A stretch of DNA of 64,000 nucleotides from the NCBI RefSeq assembly GCF_022458985.1, contig NC_061774.1, positions 11,150,616 through 11,214,615 on the forward strand, given 5' to 3'. Below, piece by piece: positions 1,780 through 59,346 of the stretch; the first letter of the stretch is position 1, and the number at the start of each line of letters is the position of its first letter. Under the pieces are notes generated by a model. It was not told the DNA's origin. It made no database searches and saw nothing but the letters and a program-made list of their open reading frames with translations. The position numbers and the translations under genes are program-made. Source of the DNA: Mugil cephalus. Taxonomy: Eukaryota > Chordata > Actinopteri > Mugiliformes > Mugilidae.

Positions 1780-4700
1780 TTGTTATAGAGGACGATGTCT
1801 GGCAGCCAGATGTGCTGCGACGGGAGCCTGATTTTCTTGATTCCCTCATACTCTTCAGGGTCCCACATTAATCTGTAGTCGTTCCACCCCTAACATAAAA
1901 GTGGACAACACATGTAGAAGCACATCAATGCGTTCAGTGGTCCCGCGCTCAAATAGGAACAACGATTAGGATTCATTTGCACCCAAACACAAGAACACAT
2001 ACAAATAACAGGGCCAAAATAAAACAGAAGAATTTGGAGACCATAGATAAACAAACCAAGACACACACTGGCTGAGTCATACCTGTCTGGCAAAATGCAT
2101 TTCAAACAGCACTACACTGACATATTTAACTTACATGCCAAGGGCTTGCCTGCCCAGTGAACCAGGTGGATGTCTACATCTGTGTACCTGCATAGGTGTG
2201 TGCCGGTCAGTGACTAATGCAACTCACACACCTGTTGCATCCCTTGGAGACAGTGTTTTAACCAAAGACTGTAAATAAAGATGGGCAGTGGAACGCCTCC
2301 CCAAAAGTGAAGTCAAAGTAAACACAGCTCCCCCTGGTGTCTGGCTGCAGTATAGGTCATAAGTGTACTTGGCCAAACACAAGAATGGATTCTCTCAATT
2401 TATGTAGATAATGTAATGCTGATGTACACTCACTGGCCGCTTTATTAGGTACACCTGTTCAATTGCTTGTTAACACAAATAGCTAATCAACCAATCACAT
2501 TGCTGCAGTTCAATGCATTTAGACATCTAGAGGTGATCAAGACAACGTGGTGAAGGTCAAACAGAGCATCAGGATGAGGAAGAAAGGGGATTTAAGTGAC
2601 TTTGAACGTGATATGGTTGTTGGTGCCAGACGGGCTGGTCTGAGTATTTCAGAAACAGTTGATCTACTGGGATTTACACCCACAACCATCTCTAGGGTTT
2701 ACAGACAATGGTCCGAAAAAGGGAAAATATCCAGTGTTAATGTGACAGGTCAGAGGAGAATGGGCAGACTGGTTGGAGATGATAGAAAGGCAACAGTAAC
2801 TCAAATAACCACTCGTTACAACCAAGGAATGCAGAATACCGTCTCTAAAAACACACAACACGTTGAATCTTAAAGAAGATGGGCTACAGCAGCAGAAGAC
2901 CACACCAGGTGTCACTCCTGTCAGCTAAGAACAGGAAACTGAGACTACAGTTCACACAGGCTCAACAAAATTGGACAATATAAGTATAAGGACCAACATT
3001 TCCTGGTCTGACAAGTCTCGATTTCAGCTGCAACATTCAGATGGCAGGGTCAGAATTTGGCATAAACAACATGAGAGCATGGATCCATCCTGCGTTGTAT
3101 CAATGGCTCAGGCTGGTGGTGGTGTAATGGTGTGGGGGATATTTTCTTGGCACACTTTGGGCCCAGTAGTACAAATTGAGCATGGATTAAATGCCTCAGC
3201 CTACCTGAGTATTGTTGCTGATCATGTCCATCCCTTTATGACCACAGTGTACCATCTTCTGACGGCTACTTCCAGCAGGATAATGCACCATGTCACAAAG
3301 CTCATATCATCTCAAACTGGTTTCTTGAACATGACAGTGAGTTCACTGTACTCCAATGGCCTCCACAGTCACCAGATCTCAATCCAATAGAGCTCCTTTG
3401 GGATGTGGTGGAACGGGAGATTCACATTATAGATGTGCAGCCGACAAATCTGCAGTGACTGTGTGATGCTATCATGTCAATATGGAACAAAATCTCTGAT
3501 TTTTCAACACCTTGTTGAAAGTATGTCACGAAGAATTAAGGCAGTTCTGAGGGCAAAAGGGATCCAACCTTTTATTAGCAAGGTGTACCTAATAAAGTGG
3601 CCAGCAAGTGTATGTTCAAGTGTCAATTTTTAGTTGCATTTTAGTTAACTATTTAACACTATAAAAACAGGTTGACTACCAGTCACCATGCCAACCGCTC
3701 TGTCTTGTAGGCTGATAGAGTAGGAAAAAAATACAGTGTATAATCCAACTTGTAACTGGTGGAGGTAAAGCAGAATGCAGTAATGTAGCGAAAACATTGG
3801 TGAGTCTGGCGGGAGTGCAGCCGGAGGATTGTTAACACAGCTCCATGTGTAAAACTCGCCAAGATGGCGCCACCCATATCCCTGAGAAACTAGCATCAGT
3901 TTGGCATATGCGAGGGAGTGGGGATGCATTGTCCATGTTTATATACAGTCTATGGTTTGACCCACAGACATGCAGTAAAAATACACACATGAAGTATAGT
4001 CAAATAAGGAGGACACAAACCTGAGAGAGCCAGCAGTTGGTTGTCATGATCTGCTCCCTCTCGTTCTAAAACACAGACACGAGGTTAATGTATCACTGAA
4101 AACCCCAAACTCACTCTTAATACCAACAACCAACTATATTCTTCAATAAATTTTAAATGAGCAGAGCAGGCCTTTACGTTAGCAGCTTATGTGGTTTTGG
4201 ATTAGTGTGCGTGGGTGTTTTCGTACCACGTTGATCAGCTGAGCTAGAGACACCTGGATGTAGATGGTAACCTGCTGGCTGTTGTTGACAGCTGGCCTGA
4301 TCAGCTTGTTGTAGCGCTCCGACGACAGCAGGTGACTCACCAGACGCTCCTCAACCTCCGCACAGCGGGCAGCTGCACATACACAGAAATAAACACACAA
4401 TGAATGTAAGTTCAACTAATAAATATCTGTGTTACGCTTTATGTTATGTTGAGAATAAATCCCATCATCATTACTGCTTGAATAACAGCAGTAAATCCTA
4501 CATTTCTTCGGCACACTGTTAAAACCTGATGGGGGTTAAAAAAAGAAATCGTCTACGTAGATGAACCCAAATGCAGGAAATGGGAAGAAGAGCCACAGGA
4601 ACCTGAGAGAAGACATCACAGGTGAACGCATCCAGCATGAACAGAAGGCACAGCTAACAAGACACGAATGAAAACAATGAAACTAAAAGATACAGGATGA

Positions 4701-24503: not shown

Positions 24504-34116
<9,613 letters not shown>

Positions 34117-36147
34117 GGCTGGGAATGAGGAGGGCGGTGGTGGATGGATGTGATGGAGGTAGAGGCTGGAGGGACGCACGTCCAGGAACCTCGCTTCTTC
34201 AGACGGCTTCCTCTGCCTCTCTACACCCCTACCCTGGTTACCTCTGCTGACGGCCCGGCACAGCGAGTGTTTTCAGGGGCATTTAAAGCTACTGTTTTAA
34301 TATAACGAGGTGAGGTACCTGGAAGAGGTGGGTTCAGGGAAGCGCAGCCCTCATCTGTCGCACAAGCACCAGCTGCATCGACTCCATCCACTCTCCCTTT
34401 ATATGTGTGGCTTAACTTGACGGAAACCGCGTCTTTCTTATTATTTTTTTTCAGACCACGTACGAGAATTTAGTCTTCAAAAATAAAACAGCTACGTGAA
34501 CACGTAGTATCAAAAAAAAAAGAATAATAATGAAAAAAAAAACAATATCCCAAGAGGTATAATGTCTCTCTTGGTTATCCGCGGTGTCCTCGTTACCAGA
34601 ACAACGACTGATGAACAAGTCTTCTTCTCTATTGTCTTTTCACAGTGAACACCATCAGTCTTTACCCACAGTAACATAAAGTGTTTTATCCGCTTTATTC
34701 GCATGCATTTGGGTAGTTTACGAGCGAGCGCTACGTCGACGCCTATGTTAACAAACAACTGAAGTTAATATTGCTCTTGGCTTCTAAAAAGCTGGCCAAG
34801 TTAAATACTTGAATCCGTCAACACAAGCAAGAGGGCTAGCTGGCGAGCGTTAGCAAAGCCGTCTCGATGACTGGTGGTAAAACTAAGTTATTAGCACGGG
34901 TTCGTGAATAAATTACAACTAAACTGCGCCGACTAGCCTACTGTAAGTATTCAAGTAACACCCCTTGGCGTTGGTTAACTATACATGCTCGTTCATTAGC
35001 ATAATTTCGATTTTCCAGCTAGCCCAAGGCTAACAGGAAGCGGGGACTAGAGGGGAAAACAAGTCCAACCGCGCCGACATTACAAGCCAGCTAACGTCGC
35101 GCTGCACCGATGTTATGCTAGTCTCTTGGAGTGCAAATAGCGAATTACCTCTGGCCACGCGAGAAAGTGGAAAGCTACATTGTCCGTCAAGTGAGACGGA
35201 TAACATTTGTCTAATTTAAATCCCCTCTCGCAGTCGCTGAGGAGCGTCGTCTCTGGTCAGCGGGGAGTGTAGTGGAGATCAATCAATGGGAGGTTCACAT
35301 CTCTGGCGAGTCGACACTAATCGATAACAGACACATATAACGTTCGTCATGAGACAATTACGTGCTAACCTTCAAATAAAATATCGCAACCCATGAGCGT
35401 CGAAACGTTAAAACACGTACAATATATATCAGAGTCGGACTTAATTTATTAGCACCGTCTAAGGATGGTTTTAATTCGTTTGTTATCAGAGTTGACTACT
35501 TCTGTCTGGACAACCCCAGGCAGCTGCCCCGCTCATTAATAATTCAGCAGCTTCATATCAGAAATACTATAGGACCACGCTTTGAAAGCCGCTGGCTTCA
35601 TACGCTTCTCAGGTAGATGTGCTTCACTTACACATACATACTCAGTCACTTACTACATACACATACTCACCTATATACTATATAAACATAAGCGCGTTTC
35701 TACTCATCACACGTCCCCAAAATCGCCTTGTTTCGTGTGCACAAAAGTAGGTTATTATTACCCTTACAATATTTCCGATGCTCCTTTGTAGGGAGCTTTT
35801 ATACAAATTTGGGGCAATTGAACAAAGAAAATCATTATTACCATAAGACTAGCATTATATTTAGAAAGATAAACAATCACCTGCACCACATTATGATGTA
35901 TAAGAATCAAAAAGGCCCATGGTTTCTATCTATATTCAAAACATGTTGAGAAAAGACATACAATTTGATAACAGTCAGTATCAGTTTTGCAGTTTAAAAA
36001 TGAGGATGTAATAACCGAACATTGTTAAAATCAAAAAGTACAAATTAGTATCCTGCTCGTTTTTTTGTACATAAAATAAATAAAGACATCAAGGAACAAT
36101 GACACTTTTTAAATCAGTAAATTAAAAAAACATTTAGAAAAGACACA
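34117..36147. other. rnf38 5' region and zcchc7 3' flank
   Basis: About 34117-35300 would hold the rnf38 5' UTR and promoter on the minus strand. It is comparatively CpG-containing (GCGAGCG, CGCGCCG and similar motifs) and has TA-poor patches, but no core element can be assigned. About 35300-36147 is AT-rich and includes the zcchc7 3' UTR on the minus strand. No protein gene is recognised. Confidence 0.5.
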
Positions 36148-39100
36148 TCATCTTCTTCTGTGGCGTACTCTTTGTCTTGGAGAAAGAAGATTTTCATTTC
36201 CTATGCCCACGTCACCATGGGGATACAAATCCCCACGTTTTGTCCCACCTCTTTTCTTCCACCTCTCTGCCTCTCTGCTTTTCTTGCTCTTTCTGGCACC
36301 TGTCTCTTCCCTCTTCTTCTTTTGTGGAGGGGGGGTGCACTGTTTGTGCAGGCGGTGTCTTAGGGGATCTGCGTGGCGGCCTTCATCATCAGAGTCACCT
36401 CGAGTTCTCCCCAGTAGGCTCCCTTCTCGCATGGCCTGGGCCTCCCTCCTCAGTCGCTTCACCTCACGTCTCTCCCTGCGCCTCTCTGGCCACGTCTTCC
36501 TCCTGCCAGCTCTGGTACTCCATGTCTCCTGCTTTGTCTTGCTCCTTTCCTTGTCCTCACCACTCTCCCCTGTTTTTTCAGACAACTGGTCCGTATCTGA
36601 AGGGGGCGGCGGTCTAGGACTCTTAATCTCTGGAACACACAGAAAAGACTTCCTTGATCAATGGTGTGATCCTGTTGTGTAGAATAACTACTGTTATATA
36701 TTAACAGCAGGCCAAATTTAATGCTCCCTGAGACAGATGAACAAGGTGAACAAGACATATTTTGCTTAAGAGCAGGTGGAGACTGAAAGACAGATTAAAA
36801 TAAGAGGCCACCTGTTGTTACTTACGTCTGTTAAATTAAGTGAATGGATGCTAATGCAAGCAGATAAAAATTAAGACCTTTATTTTCATTTGCTCACATC
36901 TCTCTATTTTTTACTATCATCTCCATTAAATGTTCTGCTAAAATCTAGCCATTGTGTTGTGTATCTGTAAAAGGTGACTCTTTGAGGGCTAGATATTTAT
37001 TTTCAATCAGCTCAAGGTCAAGTTCCACCATTTCCACCAGACTCGGTTTTTGTATTGTGTCTTGCATCGGTGACACCAGTCAGACTCCAGCCAACTCAGC
37101 ATGTTGTGTTGGCTACTCCAGCTCGCCTAATAGGTGACCAAAGTAAAGAAAACTACATACTTCAAAGGGCACGCAGGAGGCTCTTCTTATTTTTTTTTTT
37201 CTTATTTTACATCATCTGATCTAGACATTACAAAACATGACGATTTGTAGTTCTCACTAGCTTCCTAGCATCTGGGCTAAAAGCAAAAGTTATTCCTTTT
37301 TGCACATGAGCACAATGCACATGACTGCAACAAGTAGTCTTTGCATTGTAGATATGTGCAACTTTTTGGTTTTGGACTTGACATAACAATCTGCCTTCAA
37401 TGCTGGTGTAGTTTATTCATGTTGCCCTGTTATGTCTGTACCTTCATGTCAGATGCACAATACGACACCTACACACCAGTATCTGCCCAACACTGACTAC
37501 TACATAAAAACTATGGTAATTTAGAGTTTGTAGTTTCCAGGGAAACAAGTTTAAGTGATTTTGCGTACAATAATGCACGTACAATACACAATAATATATG
37601 TTTGGTCACCTTTGACTCCTTTCTTGGTACGACGTTGGAGAATGTCCTGCACGGTGTCATAGCAGCAAACATAAGGCACTGAAGGGAAAGTGCCACTGAC
37701 CATCCTCCTGCTAGTGCACTCCTGATACCAACAAAAAGACAGATGAATCGGACAAGAAGAGAAAAGCTGAAAGATGAATACAAAACTGAGAAAGCTGCTA
37801 TCAAAAAGGAACAACTCACAAGGAAATGAGGGGGAGAAAGAGTGGATGCGATGGAGCAAGATGATTTATTAAAGAATGATCCAAAACAGAGAGAGACAAT
37901 GGCATGTTGGATGGAGGAGGAACGATGTGAAGAAAGGGAAGCAACAGAAAGAGAGTATTTGCAAGTTTTAGTGAGGAAGGCTGAAAGAGGTGGTAGAAAT
38001 AAGCGAAGTGCTGATTAAATGTATCACTTACATAGCCAAAAATGTCCCTTTTTAGAGCAGTTGTAACAATGAGCATGGAATCTCTTGTGGTTGACGTTGG
38101 GCACAATCTGTGGCCTGAGGGGAACCTCTAACCTGATCTGGGGGGAAAATGGTGAAACGAGTGCTATTTTAGACAGAAGGAAAAAAAGTTTGTATTACTC
38201 TGTGTCTTTCTGAAAAACAAACATGAATTTGGTTTCTTAATTTCACCATGTAAATAAAAAAGTACGATAGATTACAATAGCACCTTGGTATTTGCTTCTA
38301 GCTCAATTAAATTGCATTATTATGGTCAAATTAATTAAAATGTGTAACTATGTTTATACAGTAAACCAGAAAGGTGTGTGCACGTTGCACGTTGGAAAGT
38401 GTAGGTAAATCAACTCACTGTCAAGTGGTACTGTCTCCATGTGTCGGGGCAGGCCTGAAAAAAAAAAAACCCAGGAAACAGGAAAAAAAATACTTAACTC
38501 TCATAGGGGCTTCACAAATTGGGCCCCACACACTCCTTCAGGCTACAGAACCTGCCTCGACAAACTCACGTCAGAAAGGTGTCCTGTAATCCCACAGCGC
38601 TGGCAGTGCTGGTTCCACACTGGAGGCATTTCACAGGGCCTGAGGCCATGGAAAGGCAGTCCACAGCTAGAGCAGGGGCGGCCCGGGCAGTCCCTCCGGA
38701 TGTGGCCCTGGATCCCACAAAGGACACACGTGGGACATTTCTGCTGACATACAGTTTTTAAGAACATGTTAGGCTATGCTCTGTCACCCAACCTCTGCAG
38801 GTGAATGGGGGGCACTGGAGATTGCACGGAGAAGGGAGAGACAAGTGTGTTCCTTTACTTTTTGGAAGTAGCAGCTTTTGGCCAGGTGTCCTGTCCTGTT
38901 GCAGACGTGACAGATCGTCAAGCGGCCGGGCGCGAAATAGCGGCTGGTCAGAGACTGATAGGCACCGTACTAGGCAAGACGAAAGGACAAGACAGAGATT
39001 TTTAAAAGGCCGCTCAAAGACTGCAGAAAAATGGTTTCTTTCCTTTCTCTAGCCACGGTTTATTCGATACAAATAAGATCTCTTGCGGTATCTGTGAAAA

Positions 39101-40981
39101 CTAATAGATGTCAAAGGTTACCTTGTCTTTGTCTGATACATCCCAGATATCTTTTAATGGTTTCACATTCTTGTCAGTTCTATCTGTATCTGTGATTGAG
39201 AAAATACAAATGAGGCATTTGTCACACAGGCACCAATACAGTACGTTCAGAGAAAGATCTTTGTCGCTCTCAGCGATGGTCCTTGAACGAGAACCCAAAC
39301 TTCTAAAAGAAAAAAAAATGTGCAAAAACAGACCAAGCCCAGTAAATAGAGTATAATATTAGTGGAAGGTTTTCAGTTTTGTAAATGCTTTACCTCTTAA
39401 GGCTTAAATATGTGATGAATAATATCTGGCCTTTCTAACATGATCCAATTATTACGTATAACCATGTGCAAAGAAAACCTTAAACCTCTCATCCAGTGAA
39501 GACCAATTTAGCAGACAAGACAAGAAAAAAAATGTGTAGTGCAACTACCTGTGTGACTACGGGGATCTTCATTTCTGTGAAGCGTTTATACAAAAAGGAA
39601 TTTCTGTGCATCCTGAGCAAACTGTAACTGGTGTTCTCCCACCAGAAAGCACAATATATCTACAAAAATGTATTTACATCAGGACTTGTCTGTCCCTTAT
39701 TGGAAGGTGTAAAATCAATAAACTTAACAGTCTGCTGCTGCAACAACATTGTCTTTCAAAACCAAGCTGTCCTTTGATGAACAACGTCCAGTTTTAAGTA
39801 AAGATGAGATCCACCCATGACCACTTCGACATTGTTAAATAAAAGCAAGAGTCAGATCCAGTTTCGTGGATAATTTCTTCTCTGTTTTTCTCATAAATTA
39901 CACAACACGATAAGTGCTTCCAGTCACATACTAGCAAGTAAAATAGATTGCGCAGATTACACAGTATCATTTTTTAATCACATAAAATCTATTTAAGATC
40001 TTCTCATACCCATGACTCTTAGTCTAAACGCCCATTACTGTCAGGCTGTGGAAACTCTCTCGGGCTTTATTCTTGCATCTTTATTCTTGCACGAAATGTA
40101 GCAGGACCCTCTAGGTCAGGGGTGTCAAACATACTGCCCTCGGGCCACAACCATCCCGCCAGAGGGGCCTATCTGGCCCGCGGGAAAAGCAACGTGCAAA
40201 GTGTGAAAATTAGAATTAAGCTTAAGAGCAATTATATTTCAATAAAACTGAAACAATAAATATAAATTTCAGGTTGTTTATAAAATGTTTTTTTAAAAGG
40301 ATAGTTCGTTAAATGTAAACATTTACCTAATGTACACCTGTGAACTAAAATAAAGGGCACTGTCGTTAATTATAGGTTATTATTCTGTTATGTTACTGGT
40401 CCTGTCTGCTTGGGATCAAATGTGACCCCTGAACTAAAATCAGTTCGACTGATCCTGATGTCACATCCTGTCTTCTTCACTCAGGTTTTACTTTTTGGTT
40501 GCTGATGTTCGGCATTAAAATATAACAGTTATAATAGTTACTTTCCTGCACTAATGCAGGTGAAAAGGCAATCACTTGGAGGAAAACGTGAAGTCTAACC
40601 TTCATCTCCAGAGTCATCCTCGGAGCTGTTCCCGTAGCTCAGGTTGAGCTGGATGCTCGAGTCCCCCACCTGCTCCTCTTCCTCCAGGATCATCCACTCC
40701 TCAATGGGTTGGTCACCGTCCTCCTCGTCGTCCTCCTGTGAGTCATCACTGGAGGACAGGCTGGTGTCCTGCAGAGATCTTGCTGAGTGGACGGAGAAGG
40801 CCAGGAGAAGAGGTGGAGAGCTTTCCCTCCTGAGTCTTGTGGCTTGCTTGCAGCTCATGTCATTGTGCTGGTGGCTGAAATTAATTTCTCCTTCTGAACT
40901 ACTGGAGTCCCCAATGAAGAAGAGGTCGTCTTCGGCAGCTTCCTCACCACCACCAACTTCATTTTCCTTAGCGCCGTCCAT
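36148..40981 (-). CDS. zcchc7: Zinc finger CCHC domain-containing protein 7 (one frameshift)
   Basis: Orthologue of ZCCHC7/Air2, the RNA-binding zinc-knuckle subunit of the nucleolar TRAMP polyadenylation complex. Eight coding exons on the minus strand: 40600-40981, 39122-39189, 38859-38969, 38570-38743, 38419-38454, 38032-38137, 37610-37721, 36148-36629; about 489 aa if the frame is continuous. Exon 1 is acidic and Ser-rich with EEWMILEEEE, and exon 2 has IWDVSDKDK, both matching human counterparts. CCHC knuckles: C170-C173-H178-C183, C193-C196-H201-C206, C234-C237-H242-C247 and C281-C284-H289-C294, with a further Cys/His-rich segment near 211-224 and CPDTWRQYHLT after the third. The C-terminus is very basic and charged. 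Exon 6 has five T where four are needed (38037-38041 region), shifting the frame inside the fourth knuckle; every other junction is in phase. Start taken as the ATG at 40981 (MDGAKENEV); an in-frame upstream ATG exists at about 41044. Confidence 0.9.
40117..40445. mobile_element. hAT-like non-autonomous element fragment
   Basis: Begins with CAGGGGTGTCAAACATACTG and contains GGGCC-type and TCTGGCCCGCGGG phrases, then an AT-rich interior, ending near TGACCCCTGAACTAAAA. This resembles a common fish repeat whose end motif GGGGTGTCAAAC I recall from hAT families. It lies in intron 1 of zcchc7, and the right end appears decayed. Confidence 0.55.
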
Positions 40982-42699
40982 AGTATGACCCAACGCTGCA
41001 GCTGAACAGCACCACCTAACGCCCGCTATCTGAACTGCAGTCACATACCGGCGGCTAATGGCTCGTTCATCGCAACATTTTTTACTAATAACCTGCTCAT
41101 ATAGATTTAAAACTGCACTGTTCTGAGTGTTTCTTTCAGAAACGTTAATTTGTTGCGTTCCTATGGAAACATTTCTAATATTTATACACGTGGTTTCTGG
41201 CTAACCAACGCGATGCTAACTAGCTCTAGTAGTAGAAGAAGCTGTTAGCAACGTAGCTAAATTAGAAATCAAGTAAAATAAGGCACTCCTTTGGTCACTT
41301 ATCGCCTTAATCCACAATACCTCGGTTGAGATTTCTTGCACTAATATAAATGAATACGGCTCTCGTGTATAGCTCAAACTAAAAGTTGCTCCTTCCACGC
41401 TTGTGTTTACATGTGTGACGATTTATCCGCCGGTGTTTCCGGTCCTGTGTCAGTTTCCTCAGCTTCCTCCTGACTTCACCAGAGCAGCAACGTCAAAAGA
41501 GACTTCGAGTCAAAAGGAAGCACTCCTGGTGCCTCTTATGCTCTTAATATCTCTCTGATAAATTCTTGTTTGTGCCACTTCTCAATGGAATAAACTTAAT
41601 GATGTAGGCTTTTTCAAAACTGTCGAGTGAAATGATAATACATGGCCAGATGATGGAGCTATAAACTAATTACGCAAAAGTGTCTTGGCTCGGTTTTTTC
41701 TTTTCACTTCTTCAAACACTTTCAGCTCTTTGTTTGCGTCTGATTTATTTTCAGTTACAGTGGGTGAGGGCGGAAACTACCAAAACACGACTCCATTTTT
41801 TTTTTAAATAAACCATGGTTGCTTCATTCGCGTATTTCTTTGCTGAGCAGCTGTGAACTTTGATTATGAGCCTTACGAAGAATTGATGTGTCATTTGCAC
41901 ATTACTACAAAACGAGCAACAGCCCACTCGCCTTTAGAGGCTGACATTTTGGTGCGCTAAGAGAAAAATCACTTTTCTGGGGCACATCGAAGACAAAATG
42001 TTCTGAGAGGGAAATGTGTGTCAGTGTAATTCTGTGGGCTAAAATACATCAAAAATACTGACATTCACTTCTGCGTCTGCCTGTTTCTAAAACTGCTGTG
42101 CTGGGAACAAATGAAATTCTGTGTCATTTATTTACTTCTTTACAGGTTTTTAAAGTATAAGGCAGTATGGATCACAGCTCGTCCACGTGAGGAGCTTCAT
42201 ACACATGTCATCTATAATTAAACAAGAACACGAGTTGATGACGAGATGATATGTTATTATTTTTTTTAATTCCATCCAAATTTAAAGCTATCATAGATTC
42301 CTAGACGAGACAACTTTTAAACACCAGGTAGAACTTTGTGTTGTGGGCCAACAATGATGCATAGTCCGCAATTAACTGGACAAATTCCTAACTAGGCTAT
42401 ACGGGGATACTAGCGTGGAAAAGGAGTGTGGTGTCTTGGGAGGAAGACGGACTTCGCAGCCTATTTCTAAAATCCTAGCTCTAAGCACTTCTGAAGTAAA
42501 CACGGCGTCTGGCCCCATGCGTGTACATCCAAAAGCTTGTGCCACCGTCCACATCTCAGGTTGTGTGAGTAGCAGACGCAGCCACCTGCAGCCCTGCAAC
42601 GCACGACGTTTCAGTTTTTGAAAAGAAATGCTACGTCCTCCAAACTGAGTAGAGACTACGACTTTTCCAGGGCTACAAACCTTAAAAGGCTGGTTTGGG
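40982..42699. other. Head-to-head intergenic region between zcchc7 and the Pax gene
   Basis: About 1.7 kb between two divergently transcribed genes. It presumably carries both 5' UTRs and promoters. No TATA box or defined site could be assigned. A 143-codon open frame at 42372-42803 on the minus strand overlaps Pax exon 1 and matches nothing I recognise. Confidence 0.5.
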
Positions 42700-44120
42700 A
42701 TGGAAGTGCGTTTTGGACAGGTTCCACTCACCATTACGCACAGTAAGTAAACTCGTTTATGAGTTTCACGCTGTCTTTGTCCACGCAGTGAATTAGGCGT
42801 CAATGTTGGTATAGCACTTCCCGTTTGATTGGTGCTCAGGTCACGGTGGGGTGAACCAGCTCGGAGGTGTCTTCGTCAACGGGCGCCCGTTACCGCACCT
42901 GGTGAGGCAGCGGATCGTGGAGCTCGCTGAGCGCGGCGTTCGTCCCTGTGAGATCTCCCGCCGCCTGCGCGTCAGTCACGGCTGTGTCAGCAAAATACTG
43001 GCCAGGTAAAAGGGGGCTGAGTTTGGTCATTTATTTAGTTTATTCATGTCTTTGTTAGTTGATTTAAGTAAAGCTAAGATCTTTTAAATTGCAGTTGTTC
43101 TTTTTTGACTTTACGGTGAAGGTCTTTCCTCTTTCTCTTTTTATTCAAACGTACAATGTATAATCATTTACGTATAAAGCATTCAGACATGTCTGGATTT
43201 AAACAGAAAAAAAGTTTGGTTGCTGGATAGAAAATTTTGATCGAAATTTGCATTCAAATGTTCGTTCAAATATTCCAAAAGACTCTTTTATACTTTCTTA
43301 GACCTGAATCCTTGCTGGTTTTCATGTTGATGATGATGGCAAACTCTACTGGGTGTGTTTTTAACTGTTTATTTGAAAAAAAGAAAAATTGACTTGTGTT
43401 AATGACAGCTATGTAATTAGTTAAAATAATTAACAGGCGCATCAAATTAGCTCAGTATCCAAAGGAACACCCTGAGTGATTCAGGGCCTGTCATCTTAAA
43501 ATTTTTACACATTTGACGCAAACGTGAAATGAACCTCAGCCATAGCTTTGTCCTCAGGTCATATGTAAACTCTGATCACATTCATATTCTTCACCCAGGT
43601 ACAATGAGACTGGAAGCATTAGACCCGGACTGATTGGAGGGTCGAAGCCCAAAGTGGCCACTCCCAGAGTTGTGCAAACCATCTTGCATCTAAAAAACAG
43701 TAACCCCACCATGTTCGCGTGGGAGATCCGAGACAGGCTGGTGCTGGAGCAAGTGTGCAACCGCAACAGCGTGCCCAGCATCAGCTCCATCAACAGGTGA
43801 CCACGTGTATTTGTGTGCTCGACAACAACAGACTTTTAAAATGACTTTTGAGTGAGTTTAAACCTCTGCCTCTACAGGATCATCAGGAACAAAGTCCAGG
43901 CCGAGTCTTATGGAGTGGGTCCGTCTTTCTTTTGTCCATTTCCTCTAAATCTGTTTATCTTCTTCACTTTGATGTTTCATGACTATAATCTCTGTCCCTA
44001 GCATCACCTGTTGCCGTGGGAACAGCCTCTGAATCCAGCTTTTCTATCAGTGGGATTCTGGGAATCAAGAAATGCAGCAGTAAACACAAAGAAGGTAATA
44101 ATATCCGTGGCTGTGATTAG
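42700..44120 (+). CDS. Diverged, apparently truncated Pax5-like transcription factor
   Basis: Paired-box (Pax2/5/8 class) DNA-binding protein. Exons: 42700-42742 (start ATG, 43 bp, donor GTAAGT), 42840-43005 (166 bp), 43599-43796 (198 bp), 43878-43918 (41 bp) and 44002-44094 or 44120. The 166/198 pair is, as far as I recall, the exon pattern of vertebrate Pax2/5/8. The paired domain starts [18 protein letters not shown] and keeps [21 protein letters not shown] and [13 protein letters not shown]. Relative to recalled PAX5 about 28 of 128 positions differ, mostly in the C-terminal half, which is extreme for this family. The octapeptide region reads [11 protein letters not shown] (PAX5: [11 protein letters not shown]). 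If the last donor is not used the frame stops at 44120, giving about 188 aa. I find no homeodomain remnant or transactivation region downstream. The donor after 43918 (GTCCGT) is weak. The head-to-head position with zcchc7 supports a pax5 origin. Exon 1 is inferred from its phase. Confidence 0.8.
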
Positions 44121-46009
44121 TATTTCTATTTGTTTGAAAGTGCCACAGCAAAATAATTCTATTTGTTTCCGCTTAATGTGTTATTTTTAGTTTGGCTCAA
44201 TCTTTACTCCTGCTGATTTCATAATGTCCACAACTAATTAAATGTTTGACTAATGTGAAAAGCTCTTTTTTTTTTTTGTAAAAGTCGACCAAACTTATTC
44301 TTTTCTTCTACAATCAGTTAAGTATTTTACTTTTCTTGTAGATACACTCAAATAATTAAATTAATGTTGCATGAAATACGCTCACAGCTTGTTGACCAAA
44401 ATGGTTTATTGCAGTTTGTGTCAATTTAAATGTGTTTCAAGGCACTTGTTAATGACTGGATGTTTGTTCTTTTACTTAAAAATATGTTTATTTTATATCT
44501 GGTAATACAAGGTTCATTTAATTGTATTTCACGGTCACTGGCTCTGAATCCATGTCTTTTCCGATTCATTGTTTTAATAATTTTTTCTTTAGACGTTAGT
44601 GTCTGTAAACATTTTGTGAAGATGGATGTATTTAGAGAGTAAACTCAGAGATCGCCGCAGTGTCTCTGCTGTTCCAGAGCAGAGTGATGTGTGAGGCCGG
44701 TTTGTCTTGTGTTAATATTAATCCGGCAGAAACAACCTCCGCAGCATGAAGCCCACCTCACCTCTCCAGGCTCCTGTCCTCTAAATCAGCAGGCTCTCTG
44801 TGCCTCTCCTCGGCCTCTCATTACAGGCCCGCTTACACCTCCACTCCTCCATCACTGCAGGCATTAGAGCAGGACATTGCACAGATAAATGCGCTCGGTT
44901 GCCCCTGGAAATGCATACATACATGTATTTTATCATTCCCATAATTAGAATGAGCGAAGACAGAAATGGAGGTGGGAAGGGAAGTAAATGTGAACCTTGG
45001 CTGAAGCTGGTTTATTTTCCAGGAGGGGACGTCTCCTGCGGTGTGCGCCACAACCATCCATGTTCCTGTAATGACGCCTGGGAAAAGTCTCACCCACGCT
45101 TGACCTTTCACCCCAGCCTAGCAGCGTATCATAATCCTCATCTGTCCTCCTGTTTAGGCCCTTTGTCGTGTCATTATAACTGAACAATGCTGCGAAGGAA
45201 AAGCATCATCGCTATTTATCACCGACACAAACTTGATGAAATAAAACTGAAATGAAACGCCTCTCATGTTCATGTTTATTTACATCGTTTGGAGAAAAGA
45301 ACATGCACATGCTTGTCTTCAAGAAGACAAATTCAGCTTCATCAGTCCTGCATATTACCACCCCCGTGGCCATTTTCTCCTCAGTCAGTGGTTGAGGGGG
45401 GGCATCATTAAGGGCCCCATGGTGGAGAACAGCAACGGTTTCTTCTCCTTAGTGTGCGTCTCTCCAGCCTCCCCTCCAGGATGAGGGATTAAAGAAAGGG
45501 GAGCTGCTACTAGAGGCACCAGCAGGGTCAAGGAACACCACTGAGAAAGAAATGTGTCCTGCAGTGGAGATCGGTCTACAGGAGGCATATTATTGTCTCG
45601 TCTTTCCACAACAACCACAAGCATGCACGCATTTGCATGCATCACATTATGCTATCATCTGTGTCTATGTAACGTTTTCTTTATGGAGTGTTTGTGTTGG
45701 ATGGGACATATGTCACATATTTTTATGTGCAGGTACTGACAGCACTCAAATGTGACTGCAAATTAGAAGTGAAAAGTTAAATGAGATAAACAAAATGAAA
45801 AAAAAATGTATGAATAGTAGAGACAAAAAGGTAAATTTGATGGGGACTGAAGGAGAATCCAAAAATAATCCGACCATAAAATGCAAAAATAATAAGAGAT
45901 TTACAAGATTACACAGTTAAACTGCATTTAAATTGCATGTCAGTATATCCACTTATATGGGTCTGTGTGTATGTGGAGGCTGTGGTGTGTGTGTGTGTGT
46001 GTGGTGATG

Positions 46010-49288: not shown

Positions 49289-52200
49289 ATGTCTGTACAC
49301 CACAGAGTTGTTCATAAGAGGAGGGAGACCATCACATGTCTGCCTCTCTACTACTCTGGACACCTGCTGAAGAAGCTTTCCAAAGAGAGGGTAAGGACAA
49401 AAACAGAGAGCGTACTGAGCAGTGAAGTGCAGAACTGATGGGGCGAAAAAGTAAATAATTAAGTATCAAATGGGCTCTGTTAATGGAGACTGACCTCTGC
49501 GAGGGATGTGTTTAGTTGTTGCAACTGTGTTAACACTGGCAGGAAGTTTACAATTAATATAATCGTATGTACATTTTTCACCCGCAAAGGTCAATCAAAA
49601 AGGGAATTAACTATATTAGTACTTGAGTAATTAAAAGAAATACAAATGAGCATTTTTGGTTTTCAGGATTTCGAGCGGTACTACGGAGAGCTCCGTGGAG
49701 CTACGCTGTTTCTGTACAAAGATGACACACAGGACACTGTAAGAAAATGTGAAAATGAATTTTTGCCCTGAAATAAATGTAACAATGATGAGAATTTAAG
49801 ACGAGGAAGTAGTTTGAATGGTGAAAACGTGAATCTGACGTTTCTTTTTGTTTTGTTTTTTGTTTTTTTGTCAGTACACTGAGATGCTGGACCTGGAGCA
49901 GCTCAAGTCCATGGAGTTGGATACTCCGTACCAACAGAAGACACCAACCATCTTCACTCTCATCCTGCCCACGGAGGAGGTGCAGCTAAAGGTCTGTTAC
50001 ACCACCTCTCACTCACCCGATTTTAGCCACAGATACAAATTGATAAAAAAAATACTGCAGCATTGTTTTAAATGACGTGTTACTTCAAGCGCTAAAATAG
50101 CTTTTACATACTCTGTGTCCTGTGTGACTGTGCAGATGGACGATGCTGACACAGGAGAGGAGTGGAGGGGTTACATCCTGACTGTGGTCAGGGTAAGCAA
50201 GCACACACGCACGACTCTCAGCTCAGTTACTCACTCATTTTACAGTGCTTCTGCGGGTTGCCAGAAAATATTTGTATTCCCTTTGAAATTAATTCTTGTC
50301 TGCAAACGGACCATGGTTAATGATCAAATGAAATTTTGACTTATGTCGCTTTGTGGGATGAACACACCTCTTAAAAGTTAAAGTGCCAAGGACACAAATC
50401 ATTTATCAAAATGTTACAAACAAGATTGTTTAAATCAGTTTAAATAAAGAGGTTGTATTTATTCAACATAACATTTAACGGGTTAAAGATACAAATGGTT
50501 TGACTCCGAACCAAAAAAGACATTCATATTTACTTGAACTGTACCAGGTCATATTTTCTTAACTGAATCACCTGAGTGTGATGGTATTAGTGATGAGGAG
50601 CTCTGCCTCCCTGTAGAAGGAGATTCCCGCTAAGCTGCAGCTGTTGCCGGGCCAGATGTGTCTGCTGCAGGACATTCTGGCTCAGGAGAGAAAAAGAAAT
50701 TCCGCTTCAGGTGGCGTCTCCTCCACGGCCAACACAGACAAGCCAGCGTTTGAGATGCCAGAGTACGTTAAAACAGAACGACTCCGTCTTTGTTTGTAAC
50801 AAGGCATGAAAAACGTGACAGACATAAGGTGTTAATACCTTACACTGGTTACAAAGTGTCATTTTTTGTCTTTGAATCTTGCAGATGTTTCTTTGACGTG
50901 ACCCGACAGGAGGCTGAGCAGATGCTGGAGGCGAACCCCGAGTATGGAGGCATCATCCTGCGCCCATCCGCCATAGCCAACAGCTACGCGCTGACCCTCA
51001 GGCAGCCGACACCCAGGTCTGACCATCCACAACCAAGCCTCTGAAAAGTACCGCTAAAGAAAGAGAACATGGGATTGAACATAGGAAAATGAATCACACA
51101 CATATACATTTTCATAAAGTTTCATAGTTTTCCCTCTAAACCAGCGCTATAACATGTGCGCCTAGAGAGTTATCTGACACCTAGATGTATAGGAGGTTAT
51201 GAAAACTATTGCATATGGTCAGGGTCCACGGGGCATGCATGAAAACAATAACCTGAATGTGTTAACGCTCAACACAAAACTATGAATTATTTAATTAAAA
51301 GTGTCTCGGAGGCCTGTTGTTACTGTATTTCAGTGTCATTTAATTATCGCAACACTCCTCATGTTTCAGGGGGGCTGTCATGAAGAACTACAGAGTGGCC
51401 GCCACAAAGTCAGGGTTCGTCATTGAACTGGAGAAGCCAGTAAGTCCTGCACGCATTGCATCTATATACTGGAGCACAAATGAAGTCACTCGCTTGCTTT
51501 ATTATCACCCTTAAGTTATCCATCCTAAATCTGGAATAAATCTTCTTTATACGGTCTGTGTTTAGAGTAGCGTAAATCTGCCAGATGTGAAATTATGTAA
51601 TTCCATTTAATTAAATTTCATTCATTCATTCATTCACATTTACTTATATAGCGTCAATAACCCTACAAATTGTCTCAAGACGCTTTACAAAAACCAACCT
51701 GAAGGCGACTCATTTCATTTCACTTAATTTAAAATCCCTAAATGCTGTATCACATGTAAAATCGTTTCAGATCCTGCAGACAGGATCAAGAAATACACTC
51801 TTAATAATTAACAACAATTTAAGGAAGCTAATGTGACACCTTAAAGTTTTTCTTTTGTTCTCAACATCATAGTTTCAACATTTAAAAGAATCAATTTGCA
51901 GTTCTCACATAATCCCTGTTGTAAAGACTACTTTAATCAAAGTACAGTAAAGTCAAGAAGCTTTCCTCATCTCTCTCCCTGCATGTGTCTTCCTCCAGGT
52001 GACAATCTCTACCTTGAATGATGCGGTTAAATACTTCGTGGAAAAAAATGAGAACATTCTCCGCCCCTACATGTTGTCTCAGCTCTATGACACTCGCATC
52101 GGTTCGTGAGAAACCCGCTTTTAGAAATAGCACAATAGTGCAGAGCTCCCCTGAAACATCTGTCATGTGTTCAACAGAGGTCACCCCTACCCCACCGAGT

Positions 52201-52323
52201 GTCAGCATCAACTCACCTGCAGATAGAATAAGACTACCCAGGGCACAAGTGGCTCCTGCGCTGCTGCCGCAGCCCAAACCGCAGGTCCTGCCCCGTCCAG
52301 ACACGCCTGGTGACGATGAATAA
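49289..52323 (+). CDS. stap1: Signal-transducing adaptor protein (STAP1-like), PH + SH2
   Basis: Cytoplasmic docking adaptor; mammalian STAP1 is a substrate and partner of Tec-family kinases. Nine coding exons: 49289-49390, 49667-49738, 49875-49991, 50136-50192, 50617-50762, 50885-51016, 51370-51439, 51999-52101, 52178-52323. All are GT-AG and in phase, giving 314 aa (human STAP1 295). The PH domain spans about residues 20-115 (YYGELRGATLFLY, FTLILPTEEVQLK, GEEWRGYILTV). The linker contains LLPGQMCLLQDIL. The SH2 domain spans about 164-265 (CFFDVTRQEAEQML, GGIILRPSA with the phosphotyrosine-binding Arg at about 191, YALTLRQ, KNYRV, VIELEKP). The tail is Pro-rich and ends PGDDE. PH-domain wording is nearer STAP1 than STAP2, though a fish stap2 paralogue is not excluded. 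The start is the first ATG in frame with the PH domain. Confidence 0.9.
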
Positions 52324-52545
52324 TTGGATCCTGATGATCAGAACCTGAAACTAGGTGAGAATGACATCATCTGGTTTGCATGGGTTCATTCGGTCTAAAT
52401 CATAGTTCTTCAACAGGGGGTTCGCGAAACGTAGGGGGTCCGCGGGGGTACTGCAGAGGGTCGCAAATTTAAATTTCTTTAAATGCACATTAACATGAAT
52501 CCAACATATTTTAGTATCTTTCACTGTCTTTCACTGTTCAAATGA

Positions 52546-53860
52546 AAAGTTGTAATATATTCATATTGCAGGTATTCTTCATAAAACATGTTTGTGGCAT
52601 AAGGCCATTTGCATTTTTATTTATTTTTTCATTAATTTTAAAAAGAAATTGCAGTTTTGTATCACTACCCCACACTCTTCCACAAGCGGGGTCAAAAATG
52701 TCCCCAAGCATTTCCTGTGGAATCTTCTATGAACCTTCAATTCTTAGCAACTGACTGTCCCACTTATACATCTGCTGTCAGCAGCCTCACACAGCAACAT
52801 ACACATGAGTATTATCTCCATTTATGAACCTGTTTTTCATTGACACATTATAATGTGTGATCAAATTAGTGATGAAATGTATGAAATGTGTGATCAGATT
52901 AGCCTACTTTGTTGTTAGCTAACAGTGTTGTATTTAGGTAGGTAACACAGTGTTGTGTTAGCTAACAGTATTGGCTAATGTTATATTAGCTAGTTTTTTG
53001 TATATGACTTATAGTTTTCTGTGCATTTCAAACATTGTTTCCTATCTAATGTTTTTATTATTATTATTTTTTATCTAAAGTAACATGGCTAGGATTCCTG
53101 TGGACCTTGTCCTTCAAATGATCCAGGACGGACAGGACGAAGAGCCCATCGGAGGCATTGACTCAGAATCTGACATCTTAGATGTAGAGGACCCAGACTA
53201 TTGTCCCCCCACTGTACAAGGCCAATCAGACACAGAGGAGTCCTCTGAAGAGGAAATGGATATTGTGTTCAACAGAATGAGCCGCAAGGGCTCTTACTGG
53301 GCAGAGTTACCTCCAAGCCAGGCTGAAACACCAAGCCACAATATTCTAAGTAGTCGGCCAGGGCCCGCACCTGGGTTTAGTACTGTCTCCCCGGTAGATG
53401 CATGGAAGCTGTTCATATCTGATAATAGGGTTAGGGTTAGACAGCTTTAGTCAGTGTTATGATCTCCGGACTAGTTCAATGTTCTCTGTTCGTCCTCCGG
53501 ACATAGGGACACACAAACATGTTTTAATGTTTTAACTGATTGATTGATTGTTAAGTGCTAAAATGTGAATGAAAAGTAAAAAATGTGCATGTCAAAAATG
53601 AAATGACTCTTTTGTTCGAACAAAATATATCATCTCTAACCAAAATGAGAGAAATGTCTTTAATTTATTGCAAAAACTCATTGATTTTAATTGGGGTCAT
53701 TTTTGACACCACTTATGGAAGAGTGGGGTAGTGATACAAAACTGCAATTTTTTTTTAAGTAATGAAAAAATAAATAAAATGCAAATGGCCTCATGTCACA
53801 AACATGTTTTATGAGGAATATCTGGAATATGAAAATATTACAACCCTTTGAAACCCACTC
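52546..53860 (+). mobile_element. piggyBac-derived element with long inverted repeats
   Basis: The stretch 52546-52706 and the reverse complement of 53691-53860 are clearly homologous over about 150 bp; both include TTCATAAAACATG-like, GGCCATTTGCATTTT and GTTTTGTATCACTACCCCAC phrases. Between them lies a piggyBac transposase N-terminus. True termini and TTAA duplications could not be placed with certainty. Just left (about 52410-52470) is a separate GGGGGTCCGCGGGGG-type repeat end, possibly hAT. Confidence 0.6.
53085..53450 (+). pseudogene. piggyBac transposase N-terminal fragment
   Basis: An open frame of about 121 codons with the acidic N-terminus typical of PGBD-like transposases (DSESDILDVEDPDYCPP, DTEESSEEEMD) and the start of the conserved domain (PVDAWKLFISDN). 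It is cut off there: the frame continues only into a short TTAGGG-type tract and a stop. The catalytic core is missing, so it is inactive. Confidence 0.75.
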
Positions 53861-55189: not shown

Positions 55190-56950
55190 ACTGGAAGTGC
55201 AAAAGTGACATGAAGTAAAGGGTGACAGTTCAGTGCAGATTCAGTTCTGTGATGGTGGATCTGACAGAGGTGGATGAGTTGTGAAGTCTTATTGCAGTTG
55301 GGAGGAACGATGTAATGTATCGTTCCTTAGAGCAGCGGGGTTGAATGAGTCTGTTTCTGAAGCTGCTCTTCAGCTTGTCCAGTGTTTTGTAGAGGGGGTG
55401 AGAGGGATTGTCCATGATTGCCAGCAGCTTTGCCAGCATCCTGTCCTCCACCACCTCCTCCAGGGTGACAAGCTTAGAGTCAACAACAGACTCTGCCTTT
55501 CTGATGAGTTTCTTCAGTCCGTTGTCATCCTTTGACTTGATGCCTGCACCCCAGGACACCACAGCAAAGAAGATGGTGCTCGCCACAACAGACTGATAGA
55601 ACATCTGCAGCATCTTGTTGCAGATATTGAAGGACCTGAGCCTCCTCAGGAAGTAAAGCCGGCTCAGGCCCTTCTTGTAGATGGCCTCTGTGTTAGTGGA
55701 CCAGTCCAGTTTATTGTCCAGTGGGACCCCCAAGTACTTATACGCAGGAACCATCTCCACATCCGTCCCACCGATGCAGACTGGAGAGGGCAGGGGCTTG
55801 TTCCTCCTGAAGTCCACCACCATCTCCTTCGTCACGTTCAGCTGCAGGTGGTTCTCCCCACACCACTTCACAAAGCGGTCAACCAGGTCCCTGTACTCAG
55901 CCTCCCTCCCCCCCTCAACACACCCCACAATGGCCGTGTCATCAGAGAATTTCTGCAGATGACACGACTCAGTGCAGTACTGAAAGTCAGCAGTGTATGT
56001 GGTGAAGAGGAAGGGGGACAGTACAGTTCCCTGGGGGGCCCCGATGTTACTAATCAGACGATCAGACACACAGTTCTGTAATCTCACAAACTGCGGTCCA
56101 CCCGTCAGTTAGTCATCGACCCAAGCGATGAAGGGAGCACCGACCTGCGTGTTCTCCAGTTTGCGGGGGGGTGGGGGTAGACGGGAGTGGTGCGGGGCAG
56201 GGAGTGATGGGGGGGGGGGTTGTTGCTCGGAGAGGCAGTAGAAGCAGTAGAGAGGCCAACAGAGGTGTTGAGGTTGGAGTTGAACCTATTGAAGAACAAG
56301 TTCAGCTCGTTCGCACGTTGTTCATCCCCCTCTGCTGCTCCCCCACCTCTCCTCTGGAAGCCGGTGATCTCTCTCATCCCTCTCCAGACGTCCCTGGTGT
56401 TGTTTTCTTCCAGTTTGTGCTCCAGTTTCCTCCTATAGTTGTCCTTACTCTCACTGATGCTGCGTTCGAGCTCCCTTTGTACTCTTTTGAGTTCTGCTCG
56501 GTCCCCTGATCTAAAGGCCCTCTTCTTCTTGTTGAGAAGGGCCTTCAGGTCGCTGATTACCCATGGTTTGTTGTTTGAGTAGCAGCGGACCTCTTTAGTG
56601 GGGATGGTGTTGTCAGTGCAGAACCCAATGCACTCAGAGACACAGTCAGTCATGCCATCAATGTCCTCAATATGTGGCTCATAAAGAGCATCCCAGTCTG
56701 TGGCCTCCAGCGCTCCACGCAGTGTATCCATGGCCTCAGGAGACCATTTCATCACTGTCCTCACTGTGACTGGGTGCCACTGAACCACAGGCTTATATGA
56801 TGGTGAGAGCAGGACAAGGTTGTGGTCTGACCTGCCCAGTGGTGGCAGGGCAGTGGAGCTGTACGCACCCTTAACATTTGCATACATCAGATCTAAAGTC
56901 TTATTGTCACGGGTGGCACAATTGACAAACTGGAAGAAGGTTGGGAGTTT
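55190..56950 (-). mobile_element. L2-like non-LTR retrotransposon, internally deleted
   Basis: On the minus strand, 56950 to about 56150 encodes the end of the endonuclease domain (FVNCATRDNKTLDLMY, LGRSDHNLVLL) and the linker (NNKPWVISDLKALLNKKK). About 56087-55230 encodes the later reverse-transcriptase part (IGAPQGTVLSPFLF, FSDDTAIVG, YKYLGVPLDNKLDW, VVSWGAGIKSKD). The RT segment normally between them is missing and a stop lies near 56108, so it is a defective copy. The 3' end runs into AT- and CA-rich repeats near 55060-55190. I assign it to the L2/CR1 group from wording only. Confidence 0.85.
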
Positions 56951-58846
56951 ATTACATACATTTTTGTCCTTGTAAGCAACAAGTAACATAATAGTGATAC
57001 AGACGTTTATTGTTCTTGGGTGAATATCACTCGAAAGATATAATCTGCTCCTTTTTCTCATTTTCTAAATTCAGTTTAATTTTCACACGGATGTCGTCCT
57101 GTTATCCTCTACAGTGGACATGCTGTGAAATTAAAAATAAATAAATAAATTTTTTTTTTTTCCCCCCCACAACTGCATTGGCATCTTTTGTATAGTTTGT
57201 TTGTTTGTTTTTGTTTTTTTGAGAAAGTCTAATCTGGCCCCTTTTCTTGGGTGCATTTGCCTGAGACGACTTCACAAGAAAGTGGGACCTCTAGTATTTC
57301 CTCCAAATTGGATGTGTTCACATTAAAGCTGAGTCTGTACATATTCATTATATGACCATACATATAATAGTTTTTGGTAAACAGAAGAAAGAAAAATAGT
57401 CTCAGTGTCCAAACATATATGAACCTAACTTTAACGTTTTCATTTATAGTTTAGAAAAAGCTACTTCTGCTTTAAATTAATACCATAGAAATGAAATGTG
57501 TTCATCACAAACTGACCAAAATGACACAGTACTTCTACAGAATTTGTTTTATCGTGTAATCTCTTGTTTCTTTAGAATTTCCACCTTGCTGGTTAACCAA
57601 AAAGTGCAGAATGTTTTTTTCCATATAAAAATTGTGTAAAAGTTATTTAGTCGCACGTACATCGACACTTTGACAACTAGACCTTGGTCTAAATACACAC
57701 ATTAACTGATCCAACTAACTAGGAGCAGGGCTCCTAGTCTGTGCTCCTAGTGCTACTCTTTCATGCACTAACATCAAAAATGATTTGCTTCACTTGTCCT
57801 TAGTGGAATACATACAATAATCTAAATCTTTGCTTATCTCAGTACATTGTTTATGACAACTACAATCCACAAAGTACCAAGTGCCTGCTCTTGGCCGGAG
57901 CCTTTCATATAGACCTTTTAAATATCATTTCCCCTCTGAAGGACACAACAAACTGACATCAAAGAGCTACCTGCAACGTCGCTTCACATCTTTTGTGCCT
58001 AGGCTAAGAAGTTGTAATTGAACACATTGCAGTGACTATAGCAACATCTAGATAGAAGATGTTCTACACCTGAGAAGATGCAGTCTCTCCTTATCAGAGG
58101 GGGATGTAGCCACTTTTGTGGCAAATGGCGGACAGTCCACTTGTCAGTATCAAAGCCTTTTCTTTTCTGTATGCAAAATGGTGCACAAGACTGCCATCAC
58201 AGTGTTTCAATCAAGACACGTTATATAAGCACAAATAATAGTGACAATAGTGTGCAAAACATTCCAGTATTTGTATTGGTATTTGAATAAAATACAAAAT
58301 AAGTGTAAAAATCCAGTTCCAGCCCAAACGCGTGCTCAAGTGCCGTCTTGGGAGCCAAAACTCGCTAAAGTTTCCTATTGGGAGGCAAAAAAGTGTGCTG
58401 AAGTGCCCTCCTGGTTGGCAAAATACGCTAAATTGCCCTCTTGGGTCAAAAAAACACTCAGCTGCCCCCTTCTAGTAAATTAAGTTAACTTCAACTTAAG
58501 TTAACTTTAATTTAAGTTAACTAAGTTAACTATATACACACAGGGGCAGAGGGATGACGGGACACAGGTGATACAAATCAGGGCAATCACACAGGGAGGA
58601 AACCAATAAGCAATCTTACCAAAACACTAGGAGGCACAACAGACAGGAAACCAGGAAAGTTAATAAAATAAAACAGGAAACGCAAAACATGATACAGACA
58701 GACATAATCGTGACTTTTCAAATGCTTTGGAACATACTCTTGGTATAAACTTAACTATCAAAAGAGTGAGCCCTTGCTCATTGGTTCAGTTAAGACATTT
58801 CAAGATACAGCACGCAAAAATAAAGTATTGAACACATCACAATTTT
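56951..58846. other. Intergenic DNA up to the assembly gap
   Basis: No gene recognised. Contains low-complexity runs near 57135-57175, a degenerate 30-bp tandem repeat (58321-58470), a short TTAAGTTAAC-type tandem (about 58480-58535), and a segment about 58545-58715 that resembles a dispersed fish repeat of uncertain class. Confidence 0.55.
58321..58470. repeat. Degenerate minisatellite, about 30-33 bp unit
   Basis: Four to five imperfect copies of a unit built on AAGTGCCCTCTTGGGAGGCA, each followed by AAA and a variable CGCTA-like end. The unit length is mostly a multiple of three, so the plus strand stays open with a recurring PSW-like motif; no gene is attached. Confidence 0.7.
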
Positions 58847-59346
58847 NNNNNNNNNNNNNNNNNNNNNNNNNNNNNNNNNNNNNNNNNNNNNNNNNNNNNN
58901 NNNNNNNNNNNNNNNNNNNNNNNNNNNNNNNNNNNNNNNNNNNNNNNNNNNNNNNNNNNNNNNNNNNNNNNNNNNNNNNNNNNNNNNNNNNNNNNNNNNN
59001 NNNNNNNNNNNNNNNNNNNNNNNNNNNNNNNNNNNNNNNNNNNNNNNNNNNNNNNNNNNNNNNNNNNNNNNNNNNNNNNNNNNNNNNNNNNNNNNNNNNN
59101 NNNNNNNNNNNNNNNNNNNNNNNNNNNNNNNNNNNNNNNNNNNNNNNNNNNNNNNNNNNNNNNNNNNNNNNNNNNNNNNNNNNNNNNNNNNNNNNNNNNN
59201 NNNNNNNNNNNNNNNNNNNNNNNNNNNNNNNNNNNNNNNNNNNNNNNNNNNNNNNNNNNNNNNNNNNNNNNNNNNNNNNNNNNNNNNNNNNNNNNNNNNN
59301 NNNNNNNNNNNNNNNNNNNNNNNNNNNNNNNNNNNNNNNNNNNNNN
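58847..59346. other. Assembly gap (500 N)
   Basis: Exactly 500 unknown bases, a conventional placeholder length, so the true distance and even the adjacency of the two flanks are not established. Confidence 0.99.

Follow-up and report, generated by a model that had tools for sequence, protein, structure and literature searches.

A fast-evolving Pax5-like gene without detectable exons 6-8 in the mullet Mugil cephalus and other spiny-rayed fishes, a candidate competitor of Pax5

The mouse isoform Pax-5d, reported by Zwollo in 1997, is said to have the paired domain but not the C-terminal activation part, and to oppose full-length Pax5. It is a splice form, whereas the locus analysed here is a gene, and the likeness between the two is one of description. 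For human PAX5, the splice forms delta-6/7/8 and delta-6/7/8/9 have been reported (PMC9456430, citing Arseneau 2009). In these forms exons 1-5 are joined to exon 9 or 10, as in the fish gene (PMC9456430); they are splice products of the normal gene, whereas the fishes have a separate gene, with exons 6-8 absent from the DNA and its own fast-evolving paired domain. In mouse, Pax5 activates and represses mostly through its C-terminal domains (PMC10509461), and octapeptides bind corepressors of the Groucho family (PMC10509461 and PMC4488758). A survey of eight ray-finned fishes with complete genomes found extra copies of every PAX gene except PAX5 and PAX8, seven out of nine in all (PMC3759438); against this survey with no extra PAX5 copies, we report here a pax5 duplicate in at least 77 species. 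For the European eel, a "Pax-5-like" locus is given among blood markers (PMC9780358), which may or may not be the gene seen in mullet. By titles and abstract beginnings, we found no published description of this gene in the open-licence literature. The RefSeq models named "paired box protein Pax-5-like" in many fishes are the same gene, automatically annotated; their names give neither ancestry, exon loss nor rate, and some models are instead named Pax-1-like, Pax-2-like or Pax-8.

The window, that is the whole stretch of 64,000 nucleotides of mullet DNA that was analysed, corresponds to C5:11150616-11214615 in a genome of 634.8 Mb and 24 contigs. The features used below are the following.

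24507-34272, minus strand: rnf38, with RING exons at 24507-25553 and further exon frames at 28325-28906 and 33694-34272
38413-41200, minus strand: zcchc7-like gene, with zinc knuckles at 38413-38951 and the first coding exon within 40598-41200, head to head with the Pax5-like gene
42700-42742, plus strand: exon 1 of the Pax5-like gene, 43 nt, with the length and phase of the 1B-type first exon of mullet pax5 (MEIHCKHDPFAAMH)
42840-43005, plus strand: exon 2, 166 nt, PAI half of the paired domain
43599-43796, plus strand: exon 3, 198 nt, linker and RED half of the paired domain
43878-43918, plus strand: exon 4, 41 nt against 65 in mullet pax5, thus 8 codons shorter with equal phase
44002-44094, plus strand: exon 5, 93 nt, with the octapeptide FSISGILG; 126 nt in mullet pax5, thus 11 codons shorter with equal phase
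44095-45022, plus strand: intron 5, 928 bp, at the place of exons 6-8 of normal pax5
45023-45183, plus strand: exon 6, tail GGDVSC...CHYN and stop, resembling canonical exon 9 running into exon 10
58847-59346, unstranded: assembly gap of 500 N

The Pax5-like gene is intact, with six coding exons totalling 702 nt on the plus strand between 42700 and 45183, GT-AG boundaries at all introns and one open frame throughout. Its translation, 233 residues followed by a stop, matches exactly the RefSeq "Pax-5-like isoform X1" of Mugil cephalus (P0001). The first-pass annotation had described a five-exon plus-strand gene with a paired domain at 42700-44120; the five exons and the 166 and 198 nt lengths were confirmed, but the gene extends beyond that interval with its sixth coding exon. 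The donor of exon 4 is weak (GTCCGT), and a different donor is used there in RefSeq isoform X2 (P0014). Both the octapeptide and the distribution of the paired domain over exons of 166 and 198 nt are those of group II Pax genes (Pax2/5/8), and the gene shows neither the broken frame nor the unconstrained change of a pseudogene. The exon lengths 43, 166 and 198 nt are common to this gene and mullet pax5. As a first exon of the same type is also present in the mullet pax2 genes, exon 1 is not diagnostic of pax5, and we dropped it as proof of a pax5 origin. In other species (records P0083 and P0009), a medaka model is without the octapeptide exon 5, and in one Scatophagus isoform exon 5 is followed directly by an end like that of exon 10, GPPCPYN; splice variety or exon decay in this gene may account for both.

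The normal pax5 of mullet, on contig C2, carries exons 6, 7, 8 and 9, with about 22 kb between exons 5 and 9, against 928 bp between exon 5 and the last exon on C5. Searching C5 with the C2 pax5 peptides, over the window plus 10 kb before it and 30 kb after it, yielded only chance-level pieces for exons 6-8 (E 0.11 or worse). Neither the partial homeodomain (exon 6) nor the transactivation part (exons 7-8) was found in this stretch of C5, a diverged exon 9/10-like end being all that was recovered there. Across species, motifs of exons 6-8 occurred in 36 of 36 normal pax5 records and in none of the 77 Pax5-like records, a set that admitted proteins up to about 330 residues only.

The last exon looked clade-specific, and a newly invented tail was considered; this was rejected, as the tail aligns from its first residue with Pax2/5/8 exon 9, with equal phase. 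It starts with GGDVSC where normal exon 9 starts with GGDFSG. Comparison of the tail with canonical exons 9-10 using hhalign gave P 0.0011 and an HH probability of 20.5% over 27 columns from residue 1, versus P 0.57 for the reversed control. In a shuffling test of 32 tails recognised by pattern (300 shuffles each, a tail passing at three or fewer), 23/32 passed against pax2 exon 9, 19/32 against percomorph pax5 exon 9 (the other 13 failing at 1%) and 6/32 against pax8 exon 9. The end GPPCHYS of relatives also resembles GSPYYYS of exon 10. The homology is modest by score; from place, phase and alignment together, we read the last exon as a probable diverged exon 9/10, and the gene as a whole resembles the human delta-6/7/8 form written into the genome.

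A protein search, with a read-through ending soon after exon 5 as query, gave 2894 matches, the best 120 of which were listed; 87 of these 120 were nearer to the Pax5-like clade than to normal pax5. We used 77 records, one per species, leaving out ten of the 87: eight second records and those of Epinephelus coioides (P0003) and Sander lucioperca (P0105). The Ataeniobius record (P0087), a 78th row at the start, was dropped as a Pax5-like candidate, being a normal pax5 fragment; some counts had included it, and the main ones were repeated on the 77. The 77 records formed one clade with FastTree (support 0.865), and 24 of them lay on one side of a branch at 100/99 in an IQ-TREE analysis of 38 Pax rows whose bootstrap had not fully settled. 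With a crab Pax gene as root, the tree did not show the clade; with the crab removed, it did. The Pax5-like gene is present in at least 77 species including mullet, from Myripristis to percomorphs, among them Genypterus, Thalassophryne, flatfishes, cichlids, medaka, killifishes, pufferfish and sticklebacks. When only the C-terminal part served as query, 49 of 56 candidates came back; those that bear a name are all fish Pax or paired-domain records, and the others are unnamed fish proteins. No Pax5-like record of goby, pipefish, cod or Lampris was among the best 120 matches, whereas their normal pax5 was among the best 120 of its own list; loss of the gene may therefore be tolerated. The octapeptide pattern xxxxGILG was found in 55/77 records (41/77 in the strict form) and was missing from 22/77, some of them partial. 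Automatic naming proved unreliable in this set: the Larimichthys crocea record named Pax-8 (P0129) is the Pax5-like gene, matching P0004 over most of its length, and other Pax5-like records are named Pax-1-like or Pax-2-like.

The paired domain of the mullet gene differs from human PAX5 at 27/127 compared residues, in agreement with the "about 28" substitutions announced by the first-pass annotation, and from that of mullet C2 pax5 at 25/127. The latter changes are distributed as 8/63 in the PAI half, 1/12 in the linker and 16/52 in the RED half (Fisher p = 0.02, PAI versus RED), so that the reported concentration in the RED half also stands. Among the 32 species with both genes complete (the Ataeniobius record P0087 not included), the mean pairwise difference of the paired domain was 15.3% (0.153) for the Pax5-like gene and 0.1% (0.001) for normal pax5, a divergence about 150-fold higher, the normal records being the best matches to mullet pax5, which favours conserved ones. 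By half, the values were 0.125 versus 0.002 for PAI and 0.199 versus 0.000 for RED; the 36 records of normal pax5 contained three distinct paired-domain sequences. The fast evolution suspected for the duplicate was thus observed, and the proposed phylogeny of the paired domain recovered one fast clade and not a clade evolving at a normal rate.

Alpha-4 is not the recognition helix of the RED half. With the helix names and limits that we take to be those of the paired domain, the alpha-3 recognition helix was changed in 11/648 cells (1.7%) and the alpha-6 recognition helix of RED (VPSVSSINRIIR) in 83/864 (9.6%), with V to I as the one difference in its consensus, against 498/864 (57.6%) for alpha-4 of RED. 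The consensus of the clade differs from normal pax5 by 20 changes, 12 of them in RED, including D97Q, K98T, A100L, D101H, Y102L, R104H and Q105T; Y102 is invariant in a set of eight Pax-family domains. The turn NGRPLP is kept in the consensus apart from V28I. The predicted model of the mullet protein has helices at 61-74, 92-104 and 131-148, in a block with pLDDT mostly above 90, RED half included, and a tail below 50. Its best Foldseek match was 1k78, PAX5 on DNA (E 1.2e-12); the whole-domain TM score was low (0.44 by target), probably owing to a different pose of the two halves in the model, and one half alone (1k78_I) fitted at 2.7 A. The idea that the protein binds DNA through the PAI half only is not supported by this comparison, given the few changes in alpha-6, the confidently predicted RED half and the location of the heavy change in alpha-4. 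The fast alpha-4 would alter the packing of RED or its partner contacts, with DNA contact not abolished. Constraint counts (below), helix conservation and the predicted model thus describe a gene that is fast but shaped by selection, with RED altered and not lost. With one copy nearly frozen and the other differing by about 15% on average between species, nature has in effect carried out a mutational scan on a paired domain retaining its recognition helices.

Because the DNA-binding part is kept, the activating exons are lost and evolution is very fast, the product is likely to be a built-in competitor or repressor. Our favoured reading, which we hold to be probable, is that this second pax5 without exons 6-8 encodes a protein that likely binds Pax2/5/8 sites without activating, and so competes with or represses Pax5-type control; judging from sequence, competition with normal Pax5 would be its likeliest role. 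A short protein would be made from the C5 gene, its paired domain would bind DNA at Pax2/5/8 target sites and the octapeptide, where retained, would by its motif recruit Groucho/TLE. Occupied Pax sites would then lower Pax5-type activation, partly through Groucho, and Pax5 would be antagonised. In mouse, according to PMC10509461, deletion of the Pax5 octapeptide affects B lymphopoiesis minimally and de-represses three genes, so that repression through this motif may be weak; the paired domain alone can still induce Cd79a and Vpreb3 (PMC10509461), and the Pax5-like product might therefore activate some genes. More tentatively, and as a possibility that we would not yet back, spiny-rayed fishes could carry a dedicated anti-Pax5, a hard-wired version of the human splice form with exons 6-8 deleted, a paired domain evolving about 150 times faster and both recognition helices kept, by which Pax programmes of B cells or of midbrain/kidney would be braked separately. 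Should the short protein indeed oppose Pax5, the truncated PAX5 forms of human B cells and lymphoma would have a gene-encoded natural counterpart, open to knockout in medaka or cichlids with pax5 untouched.

The duplicate could instead have acquired a new DNA specificity or new partners, the fast alpha-4 of RED giving it targets of its own (neofunctionalisation) in place of antagonism to Pax5. The 20 consensus changes with 12 in RED, the replacement Y102L at a residue otherwise invariant in the Pax-family set, and the clade-wide persistence of the gene would fit such a scenario, but both recognition helices are kept, as is NGRPLP apart from V28I, and the helix that changes most is not the one that recognises DNA. 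We consider it rather unlikely.

Relaxed selection after duplication could also leave a slowly dying gene, its intact frame owed to survivorship in protein databases, which list only intact copies. The about 150-fold higher divergence, the octapeptide missing from part of the records and the lineages without a record among the matches listed would agree with this. However, 52/128 paired-domain sites are invariant over 72 complete records, and they are concentrated at sites constant in the set of eight Pax and prd domains (43/65 such family-invariant sites, against 9/63 of the others; odds ratio 11.7, p 1.4e-9). Site entropy also tracks that of the Pax family (rho 0.71); since the variable sites tend to be those that vary in the family, the gene is constrained and not simply decaying. 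Between C5 and C2 pax5, pairwise dN was 0.154 and dS 1.42 (124 codons); for the RED half alone, with 48 codons and about 31 synonymous sites, the values of 0.254 and 0.587 are close to relaxed. The dN of the mullet pax2 pair was 0.0073. The gene is fast yet constrained and is shared by at least 77 species, spanning Myripristis to percomorphs; the lone decaying pseudogene that the first-pass annotation named as a refuting case was not seen, and a dying gene appears improbable.

As to the origin of this constrained duplicate, the mullet genome contains five loci of Pax2/5/8 type, as found with a human PAX5 probe: two pax2 (C13 and C16), pax5 (C2), pax8 (C19) and the Pax5-like gene (C5); the search for the PAX family as a whole gave 34 exon-level matches. 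The second, normal pax5 that the first-pass annotation proposed to look for is therefore the C2 gene, whose first exon is at C2:23620723 and whose exons measure 43, 166, 198, 65 and 126 nt before exons 6-9. It shares with the C5 gene the 43/166/198-nt exons, the phases, the octapeptide and a head-to-head zcchc7, and differs by having at least exons 6-9, the partial homeodomain, the C-terminal domains and a near-invariant paired domain. On C2, zcchc7 begins at C2:23640407, with zinc knuckles at 23666592-23669720. The same neighbour in the same orientation, a mark of pax5 ancestry, is found on C5; as both pax5 copies stand head to head with zcchc7, a two-gene block was duplicated. The C5 zcchc7-like gene is itself strongly diverged, with 32% identity to human ZCCHC7 over one knuckle stretch, against 44% for the C2 copy.

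Descent from pax5 was supported. The block on C2 and C5 fits an ohnolog of the teleost duplication, as had been suggested, and we infer that the pair arose in the teleost whole-genome duplication; dS between C5 and C2 pax5 (1.42) and between the mullet pax2 genes (0.93) is saturated, the branching order is weakly supported in the trees and the Pax5-like records among the matches listed are all from Myripristis and percomorphs. Derivation from pax2 or pax8 has in its favour the near identity of Pax2/5/8 paired domains, the first-exon type shared with mullet pax2 and a tail whose score is slightly higher with exon 9 of pax2 than with that of pax5, but we regard it as very improbable given the adjoining zcchc7, as at C2 pax5, and a FastTree in which the Pax5-like clade joins most teleost pax5 (support 0.997). 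Residue 122 leans the same way, though less cleanly. Among the vertebrate sequences compared it is always R in pax5 and always G in pax2/8; in the Pax5-like gene it is R in 48/77 records, Q in 26/77 (mullet included), G in 2/77 and C in 1/77.

On the other side of zcchc7 lies rnf38, a neighbour of PAX5 in human; a genome-wide search with one of its exons matched C5 only, the second C5 match falling in a copy behind the assembly gap. The rnf38 exon frame at 28325-28906 (minus strand) holds a long histidine- and asparagine-rich run. In eels, an Anguilla rostrata "Pax-5-like" protein (P0237) is full-length and carries K79 and T128, which are found in tetrapods but not in most of the teleost pax5 compared; from this sequence, eels may keep a second full-length pax5.

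The copy just mentioned repeats 28767-53918 at 60082-86527 (window numbering, past the window end). It is about 95-100% identical up to 39.3 kb, the rnf38 part, and then about 83% through the pax region, where its pax exons are broken. Insertions and deletions numbered 209 and 53, and transitions and transversions 497 and 687, at 39.8-47.0 kb, against 30 and 25, and 45 and 31, at 29.0-36.5 kb. Coding positions (103 substitutions, 423 matches) are no better kept than non-coding ones (168 and 886). A tandem duplicate was rejected, as this error pattern points to unpolished sequence; the copy is likely a false assembly duplication, in which a haplotype was wrongly split off and its long reads were left uncorrected. 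That the Pax5-like gene itself is an artefact of this noisy region, with its second copy 31 kb downstream behind 500 N, has a negligible probability, the studied copy having clean frames and clean splice sites, and at least 76 other species having relatives of it, whereas the insertion excess, the transversions and the broken exons point at the other copy. Elsewhere in the window, the open frames at 2523-3390 (plus strand), 52000-53450 and 55230-57064 (minus strand) resemble by eye a Tc1-type transposase, a piggyBac-like fragment and a LINE reverse transcriptase.
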